NCBI GenBank assembly: GCA_938003955.1
Contig: CALKXE010000053.1
Span: 1-64,000 of the forward strand
Reading direction: 5' to 3'
Origin: an uncultured Saprospiraceae bacterium
GTDB lineage: Bacteria > Bacteroidota > Bacteroidia > Chitinophagales > Saprospiraceae
DNA: 64,000 nucleotides
Under the pieces are notes generated by a model. That model had not been told where the DNA came from, ran no database searches, and was given only the letters and a program-made list of their open reading frames with translations. Shown piece by piece: positions 26,056 through 27,567 of this stretch. Numbering within the stretch: position 1 is the stretch's first letter; each line of letters begins with the position of its first letter. The position numbers and the translations under genes were made by a program.

Positions 26056-26847
26056 ATGAGAAGTATTTGGAAAGGACATATCAGGTTTTCTTTAGTTACT
26101 ATACCGATACAGATATTTAATGCTGTAGAAAAAGGAAATGATATAAGTTTCAAACAACTCCATAGCGAGGATAATGGTCGTATTACGTACAAGAAAATTT
26201 GTACAGTTTGTGATGAAGAAGTGCCATATGGGGATATCGCAAAAGGATACGAATATGAACCTGACCAGTACGTTGTTTTCAAGAAAGAAGAGTTTTCAGC
26301 GATTAAGCTAAAAAGTAATAGAGCTATAGATGTGGATGCATTCGTTGATGTAGATGAGGTGCATCCTTCTAGATTCGAGGCAGTTTATTATGTCGGGCCT
26401 AATGGTGATATTGGAATTCAGACATTCAATTTATTTAGAAAAGCACTGATAAAGACCAATAAGGCTGGGGTAGGTAGGATTATCTTGAGAGATAGAGAAG
26501 ATGTAGTTTTAATTACTGCCCAAGGAGATGGTTTGATCATGTACAAGCTAAGGTATCCATATGAATTAAGAAAGATGGAAGATGTTCCAGACCTCGAAGA
26601 TGCAGACGTTGATGAAACGCAACTTAAACTTGCAGAGACACTTATAGCATCCTTAGATAAGCCGTTTACTGAGATTGATTTCGAGGATAGATATAGAGAT
26701 GCATTACTTGAGTTAGTAGAGGATAAAGTATCTGGTAAAGAGATAGTTACGCTATCTGAAGAAGCGGAGTCAGCGCCGGTTGTAGATATAATGGATGCGT
26801 TAAAGAAGAGTATAGAGGATGCTAAGAAAGTAAAAGAGGATAAATAG
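26056..26847 (+). CDS. ku: Ku protein (non-homologous end joining)
   Basis: Bacterial Ku homodimers encircle DNA ends and recruit repair enzymes. The 263-residue protein begins MRSIWKGHIRFSLVTIPIQIFNAVE, the classic Ku start, continues with RITYKKICTVCDEEVPYGDIAKGYEYEPDQYV and the beta-barrel/bridge region. It ends after a helical arm (VDIMDALKKSIEDAKKVKEDK) with only a short Lys-rich tail. No LigD ligase/polymerase is present in the window. The stop codon abuts the ATG of an ExoIII-like nuclease gene, so the two are almost certainly translated together. Confidence 0.95.
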   Translation: MRSIWKGHIRFSLVTIPIQIFNAVEKGNDISFKQLHSEDNGRITYKKICTVCDEEVPYGDIAKGYEYEPDQYVVFKKEEFSAIKLKSNRAIDVDAFVDVDEVHPSRFEAVYYVGPNGDIGIQTFNLFRKALIKTNKAGVGRIILRDREDVVLITAQGDGLIMYKLRYPYELRKMEDVPDLEDADVDETQLKLAETLIASLDKPFTEIDFEDRYRDALLELVEDKVSGKEIVTLSEEAESAPVVDIMDALKKSIEDAKKVKEDK

Positions 26848-27540
26848 ATGATCAAACTGTGCTCATGGAATATACAAGCGGGCGGCGGTAGTCGTGCGCT
26901 TTCTATTGTAAAAGTGATTGTGAAATCAAAATCCAATATCGTAGCCATGAGCGAATTCAGAAATAATGATTCTGGTAACACGTTAAGAAACTATCTTTTG
27001 AAAGCTGGTTATAGATACCAAGCGGTTACTCATTCGAGTAGAAATGACAACAGTGTGCTTATAGCATCAATATTGCCTTTCAATTCCGAGATATATCCGT
27101 CAAGTGATCCCAAGTTTTCGGGTAATATAATAACAGCACATTTTCCTGCTTTTTCAGTCTTGGGTGTATATCTTCCGCATAAAAAGAAACATCAACTTCT
27201 AGAATTTATCACCAAGGAGACATCAGACAAGGATACTCCATTCATTATCTGCGGGGATTACAATACTGGAGTCAATTACATAGATCAAAAAGGAAATTCA
27301 TTCTGGTATACAGATCAATTGGATAAGCTTAAGAAATCTGGTCAAAAAGATGCTTTCCGCTTAGTAAATGCAGATGCAGAAGAATTTTCATGGTATTCGC
27401 ATCAAGGAAATGGTTTTAGATATGACCATACCTTTGTAGATAATATTCTAGCGCCAATAGTCACGAACTGTTATTACGATCATCAATGGCGGTTGGATAA
27501 GCTTAGTGATCATAGTCCTATGTTTTTAGAAATGGGATAA
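26848..27540 (+). CDS. endonuclease/exonuclease/phosphatase-family protein (ExoIII/APE-like), paired with Ku
   Basis: This 230-residue cytosolic protein has the EEP-fold catalytic set in order: Asn8 (CSWNIQ), Glu36 (SEFR), Tyr108 (GVYLP), Asp137/Asn139 (CGDYNTG), an RYDH element at 191-194 that replaces the usual RIDY, and Asp221/His222 (LSDHSP). Family members include AP endonucleases, exonuclease III and tyrosyl-DNA phosphodiesterase 2. It starts on the base after the Ku stop codon, strongly suggesting a DNA-end-processing role in end joining. The exact activity cannot be read from sequence. A terminator follows. Confidence 0.85.
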   Translation: MIKLCSWNIQAGGGSRALSIVKVIVKSKSNIVAMSEFRNNDSGNTLRNYLLKAGYRYQAVTHSSRNDNSVLIASILPFNSEIYPSSDPKFSGNIITAHFPAFSVLGVYLPHKKKHQLLEFITKETSDKDTPFIICGDYNTGVNYIDQKGNSFWYTDQLDKLKKSGQKDAFRLVNADAEEFSWYSHQGNGFRYDHTFVDNILAPIVTNCYYDHQWRLDKLSDHSPMFLEMG

Positions 27541-27543
27541 AAA

Positions 27544-27567
27544 AGGAATTGTAATTCCTGATTTTTT
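27544..27567 (+). terminator. terminator of the Ku-nuclease operon
   Basis: AGGAAT/ATTCCT stem with loop TGTA, then GATTTTTTAT, four bases after the nuclease stop codon. Confidence 0.75.

Follow-up and report, generated by a model that had tools for sequence, protein, structure and literature searches.

A Ku-linked ExoIII/APE-class nuclease as a probable third member of non-homologous end-joining operons in one order of Bacteroidota

We describe a nuclease of the ExoIII/APE class (hereafter EEP) that is encoded directly behind the DNA-end-binding protein Ku and that is probably the third gene of a non-homologous end-joining (NHEJ) operon, its product cleaning 3′ ends at Ku-held breaks. The gene lies in a 64,000-nucleotide stretch of DNA (the window) from an uncultured Saprospiraceae bacterium (assembly GCA_938003955.1, here G000; contig CALKXE010000053.1, positions 1 to 64,000). 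Our analysis identifies EEP as a lineage-specific third component of a system described as having two, and we found no paper reporting it.

Ku and LigD are presented as the core of bacterial NHEJ in the accessible text of several studies (PMC1378119, PMC8656161, PMC7719229), and the neighbourhood analysis in the accessible part of the last of these considers Ku and LigD relative to each other. Our search of the open-access literature, whose sources were in part accessible as excerpts and which did not extend to the early Ku-ligase operon predictions, returned no report of a Ku operon that includes an EEP or ExoIII gene, and no paper on non-homologous end joining in Saprospiraceae. The loci analysed here resemble the two-component system in that Ku and, in relatives of the window, LigD (mostly Pol-PE-Lig) are encoded in one gene string, but they differ from it in carrying a conserved third nuclease gene after Ku.

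The Ku protein of the window (Table 1) clears the cut-off of the bacterial Ku equivalog TIGR02772 (150 bits) by a wide margin, which assigns it by family the role of DNA-end-binding protein in bacterial non-homologous end joining, and it is the single Ku match in the whole genome. Its TAG stop codon ends at position 26847 and the ATG of the EEP gene begins at 26848; this gap of 0 is what the original prediction for this DNA had read from the letters. The EEP protein matches Pfam PF03372 with 47.2 bits (cut-off 24.5). That prediction had also placed a terminator behind the pair, for which we find little backing: the hairpin there has 6 bp before its T run, 49 of 200 shuffled sequences fold at least as well, and a consensus terminator scan does not list it. 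The eight neighbouring proteins tested, spanning 20.6-31.9 kb, comprise two class V aminotransferases, a RibD-like deaminase/reductase, two thioredoxin-like proteins, a PorP/SprF protein, a subtilase and a pyridine nucleotide-disulphide oxidoreductase; no ligase is among them, in agreement with the predicted lack of a nearby LigD. A defence system was considered and ruled out, a PADLOC search having matched neither the Ku nor the EEP protein.

Table 1. Features of the Ku-EEP locus in the window
Feature	Position	Strand	Basis
Ku, 263 aa	26056..26847	+	TIGR02772 274.5 bits, PF02735; closest PDB relatives are bacterial Ku
Ku-linked EEP nuclease, 230 aa	26848..27540	+	PF03372, intact catalytic set, ExoIII/APE fold (predicted)
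Subfamily signature span, EEP residues 35-225	26950..27522	+	(Nearly) invariant columns of alignment A1
Weak hairpin resembling a terminator, with a T run, 3′ of the pair	27544..27567	+	-5.2 kcal/mol, z -0.77

The chemistry of the ExoIII/APE class appears to be fully retained in EEP. The catalytic set that the original prediction had recognized (N8, E36, Y108, D137, N139, D221 and H222) is invariant in 41 of 41 aligned members, and the AlphaFold model (pLDDT 89, pTM 0.89) has as its best 50 fold matches structures of this class, with Z 23.6-25.4 and rmsd 2.2-2.8 over 213-224 residues (for 5ewt, Z 25.4 and rmsd 2.2 over 213 residues). EEP thus shares with ExoIII, ExoA, APE1 and Mth212 a predicted fold (Z about 24) and a complete catalytic set, but differs from them in scoring below the xth cut-off, in the length of three putative DNA-gripping-loop segments (shorter by 6-12 residues), in the possession of the motifs YLPHKKKH, IDQKGxSFWY and NGxRYDH, and in its linkage to Ku. 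Against the exodeoxyribonuclease III equivalogs the window protein reaches 72.0 bits for TIGR00633 (xth; cut-off 99.05) and 71.4 bits for TIGR00195 (cut-off 182.55), while all 40 members of alignment A1, which combines the window protein with those of 39 loci out of the 40 described below (all but L031, which a contig end truncates), match both models at E <= 0.001. In this alignment the subfamily signature runs through SEFRNN (35-40), YLPHKKKH (108-115), GDYNTGxNxIDQKGxSFWY (136-154), SWYSHQGNGxRYDH (181-194), C208, R215 and SDHSPM (220-225).

A phylogenetic tree of 64 rows likewise sets 29 subfamily rows apart from 33 ExoIII-type rows, among them E. coli ExoIII and Mth212, with support of 99/95, although the bootstrap had not settled. 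The remaining two rows are distant EEPs on branches of 4 and 10, and a long-branch effect may explain why one of them joins the subfamily. Twenty of the subfamily rows were labelled Ku-linked (hand-picked) and nine solo, the latter including one locus with a Ku fragment at a contig edge (L011) and one with Ku 3.6 kb off (L020); the Ku-linked rows do not form one clade, and solo rows are interspersed among them. The genome of the window, moreover, encodes its own ordinary ExoIII (G000:C211, L138), which scores 280 bits against B. subtilis ExoA and 55 against the subfamily profile. The low xth score, the separation in the tree, the shorter segments and the presence of a separate ExoIII together rule out a housekeeping ExoIII orthologue and, on protein sequence, mark the Ku-linked EEP as a separate subfamily of the ExoIII/APE class. 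A separate subfamily had been suspected from the RYDH that replaces the usual RIDY, and this element is real, with Y192 present in 41 of 41 members and H194 in 40 of 41. In one genome (G012, 91% complete) we found no ordinary ExoIII, just the Ku-linked EEP and larger EEP proteins.

The differences from ExoIII concentrate in three segments, whose lengths we compared between 41 subfamily members and 35 ExoIII-type rows. The Y108-D137 segment measures 27-29 residues vs 39-42 in ExoIII-type enzymes (medians 28 and 40), the D137-F152 segment 15 vs 22-30 (medians 15 and 24) and the W182-D193 segment 11 vs 17-18 (medians 11 and 17), so that the subfamily is 12, 9 and 6 residues shorter, with ranges that do not overlap those of the ExoIII type. 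The N68-Y108 segment is slightly shorter (38-40 vs 42-46), and D193-D221 somewhat longer (28 vs a median of 25, range 25-29). In APE1, the loops around Arg177, Asn222-Asn229 and Met270 clamp the DNA at the abasic site, and we take the three shortened segments to be, by position, those that hold these loops. Going by these lengths, the subfamily appears to lack the full-length DNA-binding loops of ExoIII/APE1-type AP endonucleases; loop loss is read from sequence lengths because the model is at its least certain in the loop regions (pLDDT below 50 at 183-188, mean of 63 over block 141-150). The same regions carry invariant residues of the subfamily's own: HKKK (followed by a His in 40 of 41), N143, D146, Q147, S151, F152, N188, G189, R191, Y192 and D193.

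These features bear on the possibility that EEP, as an ExoIII paralogue, serves as a second AP endonuclease, cutting at abasic sites in general BER or near break ends and standing beside Ku only because the same stress calls for both. Its fold and catalytic set do match those of AP endonucleases, and the literature offers a context: the Ku of B. subtilis is involved in the processing of abasic sites (PMC4245934, accessible text), and LigD has 5′-dRP lyase activity (PMC4770248, accessible text). We nonetheless regard this reading as unlikely, given that the genome has an ordinary ExoIII of its own, that the three segments are shortened in all 41 members and that the distribution of the gene follows Ku, with none of 45 Ku-less relatives carrying it. 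A precedent for an ExoIII-fold paralogue with a different specialization exists in Neisseria meningitidis, where NExo is described, in the available text of PMC6294502, as a specialized 3′-phosphatase that works beside a general AP endonuclease and whose His167 blocks the abasic pocket. NExo, a fold match to EEP (Z 24.5), thus sets a precedent, in that partly available source, for specialization of an ExoIII paralogue towards 3′ lesions. EEP differs from it in lacking a His at the place that would correspond to His167, where the pocket residue appears to be small, as would suit an AP endonuclease (G149 or S151, the alignment being ambiguous here and NExo itself lying outside it). The invariant His111 of EEP would fall at the place of NExo Asn108 and NApe Ser112, again with NExo outside the alignment; zebrafish Ape has Asn there, and 23 of the 35 ExoIII-type rows have Ser.

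Profile comparisons address two further activities. The subfamily profile finds its best matches in Mth212 and other bacterial and archaeal ExoIII-type enzymes (67.6 bits; best 60 of 65 matches). The 5′-tyrosyl removal by a Tdp2-like enzyme that had been suggested for EEP finds no support, since no Tdp2 occurs among those 60 of 65 profile matches or the 50 best fold matches, all of which are of ExoIII/APE or LINE-1 type. The LINE-1 endonuclease, a 238-residue member of the fold, reaches 51 bits and outscores E. coli ExoIII (37.5) and human APE1 (about 36), which would fit a nicking or resecting nuclease, LINE-1-endonuclease-like or acting as a 3′-5′ exonuclease, that exposes microhomology for the LigD polymerase. 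This activity is distinctly improbable: the best matches of the profile are those to Mth212 and the ExoIII type, the best fold matches agree with them, and, as an argument and not as evidence, an unguarded exonuclease beside Ku would threaten the ends.

Whether the pairing with Ku extends beyond the window was assessed on relatives sought by EEP similarity alone, Ku playing no part in the search. Exact peptide patterns of the window EEP, which reach close relatives only, returned 78 stretches, and 40 of them were confirmed as EEP loci (39 labelled Saprospiraceae or Saprospirales, one Pirellulaceae). Of these 40 loci, several of which are near-copies, 32 have Ku upstream in the same orientation, or 33 when L011 is included, where the end fragment of a Ku gene precedes EEP at the contig edge; the adjacency seen in the window is therefore conserved in other genomes. 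Ku lies within 616 nt of EEP in 31 of the 32 loci, L020 being the exception. The gap is at most 15 nt in 23 of 32 and the genes overlap in 14 of 32; these distances run to where the BLAST match begins, which does not prove the start codon. Adjacency was not seen in seven of the 40 loci, one of which (L033) is at a contig edge. In nine genomes with EEP and no adjacency in view, Ku was found beyond the examined flank in seven; the remaining two are G069, in which L011 and its Ku fragment lie, and G091, the bin that carries the label Pirellulaceae.

The genes beyond the pair mostly vary between loci, so that Ku and EEP stay together amid changing surroundings. A gene order inherited within the lineage, with no functional link, would be consistent with the confinement of the subfamily to one order in our samples, since shared descent could carry the order along. 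It is, however, a very remote explanation: the adjacency persists down to 44% EEP protein identity (L041) and across three families, with mostly differing outer genes, and among 60 genomes none without Ku has EEP. In one near relative (L002:4162-4935) Ku is broken across reading frames and the EEP gene that follows is whole, which reflects either an assembly error or EEP outliving Ku; the Ku of G002 also yields two separate matches. An apparent Ku-EEP fusion in G543 was dismissed, the join being a scaffold gap of N, and G526 has such a gap as well. In G020, a second subfamily fragment consisting of the last 38 residues (C85:19607-19720, 47 bits) sits at the end of the contig that bears the intact Ku-EEP pair and is perhaps an assembly repeat.

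The distribution of the two genes was examined in three genome samples. Among 60 genomes (that of the window and its relatives), Ku occurs in 15 and the EEP subfamily, called at matches above 300 bits with the next best match at 80 bits, in 12, all of them among the Ku genomes; 12 of 15 Ku genomes vs 0 of 45 Ku-less ones thus carry EEP (Fisher p 3e-10, relatedness ignored), the Ku genomes without it being G027, G045 and G052. In G037 Ku and EEP are on different contigs; in the other 11 genomes they share a contig and are no more than about 1 kb apart. A sample of 396 genomes of the order contains 25 with EEP, 20 from the family of the window, two from family f2 and three from f12, these three being partial matches of 133-261 bits. 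A 1.5-kb flank shows Ku for 20 of these 25 genomes and LigD for 13, and no Ku for the other five. The loci, the 60 relatives and the order sample overlap partly (L012 and L172, for instance, have equal coordinates and identities), and their counts are not independent. Among 395 genomes of the phylum, Ku occurs in 50 and the subfamily in two, both from the family of the window and both with Ku; 11 of the 395 gave matches at E <= 1e-20, and nine of these, ExoIII-type proteins at 76-82 bits, were excluded. A further member of the window's family in this sample (G161) has Ku without the EEP subfamily. As three of the 15 Ku genomes among the relatives and 48 of the 50 in the phylum sample are without EEP, Ku and LigD evidently work without it. 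The EEP gene is hence an NHEJ accessory in one order of Bacteroidota, where it occurs in three families, plus one bin labelled otherwise. That bin holds L033, a contig labelled Pirellulaceae and the sole member outside Bacteroidota by label; its EEP is 51% identical and near a contig edge, no Ku was found in the bin, and either mis-binning or transfer would account for it.

A phage or plasmid origin was ruled out. Although 32 viral stretches match a peptide pattern, none was confirmed as an EEP relative, and ten plasmid records carry EEP proteins, the eight listed being 26-29% identical; two plasmids inspected have no annotated Ku within 5 kb in gene tables that are incomplete. Two Streptomyces plasmid EEPs (L170, L171; ~26% identical) neighbour genes for aldo/keto reductase, aminotransferase or radical SAM proteins and may belong to biosynthetic clusters. 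An ordinary ExoIII adjoins Ku in a genome of the same class and another family (G377; L122:2145-2921, + strand, with Ku on the other strand); it scores 208 bits on the ExoIII profile and 51 on the subfamily profile, and possibly represents an independent pairing. Within 1.5-kb flanks, an ordinary ExoIII beside Ku was seen in one of 20 Ku loci of the phylum and in none of five further loci. Three solo subfamily EEP genes (L004, L013, L040), which form a starred clade in the tree and whose genomes have Ku elsewhere, each have a PdeM-type gene and an ECF sigma factor gene a few genes away. They recall in this the ligase-associated DNA damage response genes: the PdeM-type neighbours fall in one protein cluster, whose L004 member is PdeM by TIGR04123 (217 bits); PdeM differs in being another enzyme than EEP, most members of which sit beside Ku.

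The original prediction had EEP standing in for LigD, and suggested checking whether the pairing tracks the absence of LigD or of its phosphoesterase domain; the data do not support such a replacement. LigD ends at most 576 bp upstream of Ku in 16 of the 26 loci that have Ku and at least 600 bp of upstream sequence, is 2.6 and 3.8 kb off in two and is unseen in eight (L019 is itself the LigD query of this search); it also adjoins Ku in two loci with a shorter flank (L018, L035). LigD-sized ligase frames (660-794 aa) occur in 10 of the 12 EEP genomes among the 60, the exceptions being G000 and G022. An ATP-dependent ligase domain is present in 39 of 40 EEP genomes, a count that takes in a non-LigD ligase type and one weak match (G093) and in which genomes reached through loci come with no completeness figures. 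The domain order Pol, phosphoesterase, ligase is found in EEP genomes (L019, L006, L039, and the congeners G001 and G002, confirmed in L094 and L093) and in Ku genomes without EEP (L091, L090), and the phosphoesterase domain (Pfam PF13298 on a subset) is present in 14 of the 16 LigDs with a readable region. In three LigDs (L026:101-1942, L027:2290-4164 and L099:2-1447, the last from G065) Pol is joined straight to the ligase with no phosphoesterase domain.

A replacement by EEP of a missing LigD or LigD phosphoesterase would accord with these three LigDs, whose genomes all carry EEP, with the phosphoesterase of the two scanned LigDs from EEP-less genomes, and with the two genomes in which LigD was not found, in G022 by frame size and in G000 by a genome-wide search with the ATP-ligase family and a congener's LigD. 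The same ligase-family search found LigD-sized frames in the congeners G001, G002 and G003; at 304 contigs and 94.4% completeness, however, loss of LigD from G000 is not distinguishable from missing sequence. A second ATP ligase of the congeners, of 533-566 aa type, is also missing from the G000 assembly. With the phosphoesterase retained in most readable LigDs, including those of two congeners, and a ligase domain in nearly all EEP genomes, replacement is highly improbable for EEP and is ruled out as a general rule. As LigD adjoins Ku in relatives and mostly keeps its phosphoesterase, the EEP gene usually joins LigD rather than replacing it. The idea of an alternative end-processing partner accordingly stands in part: there is a dedicated EEP tied to Ku, by adjacency and by co-occurrence, but LigD is not replaced.

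With its chemistry kept, its duplex-gripping parts shortened and its gene encoded with Ku, EEP is best read, as far as sequence can tell, as most likely a dedicated 3′-end-cleaning nuclease for Ku-bound breaks. The commonest operon order in this order of Bacteroidota would be LigD-Ku-EEP, and in the genus of the window LigD would lie elsewhere, leaving the Ku-EEP pair. Presumed co-translation would yield the nuclease together with Ku, placing it at Ku-held ends, where it would strip 3′ blocking groups such as 3′-phosphoglycolate, 3′-phosphate or the 3′-unsaturated aldehyde from AP-lyase cleavage. ExoIII-type enzymes are established removers of such 3′ blocks. Metal-dependent hydrolysis of the ExoIII type would leave a 3′-OH for LigD to extend and seal, and loss of the APE1-type loops that hold unbroken duplex around an abasic site may allow the enzyme to reach an end beside Ku and may also lower its action on intact DNA. 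EEP would in this way supplement the phosphoesterase of LigD and not replace it, and, as LigD usually keeps its own 3′-phosphoesterase, a further 3′ cleaner would be partly redundant. According to the accessible text of PMC4245934, B. subtilis Ku has AP/5′-dRP-lyase activity, and the authors state that AP-lyase cleavage leaves a 3′-unsaturated aldehyde in need of cleaning; the lyase is, per the same text, negligible on 3′ overhangs, which would lessen the need for a 3′-PUA cleaner at ends. This result and the broken Ku of L002 slightly lower our confidence in a 3′-end cleaner.

The conserved third gene tracking Ku points to an end-processing step in bacterial NHEJ that has not been accounted for. 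Being small and open to assay, the Ku-linked EEP offers a way to probe which 3′ lesions are beyond LigD, and it illustrates how the ExoIII fold may be pared down for Ku-bound ends. More tentatively, end joining in this order could have three components. The third, an ExoIII-type enzyme stripped of its loops, would be produced along with Ku, be guided by Ku to break ends and remove 3′ blocks beyond the reach of the LigD phosphoesterase. If so, EEP would be the bacterial counterpart of those accessory enzymes that clean ends in eukaryotic NHEJ.
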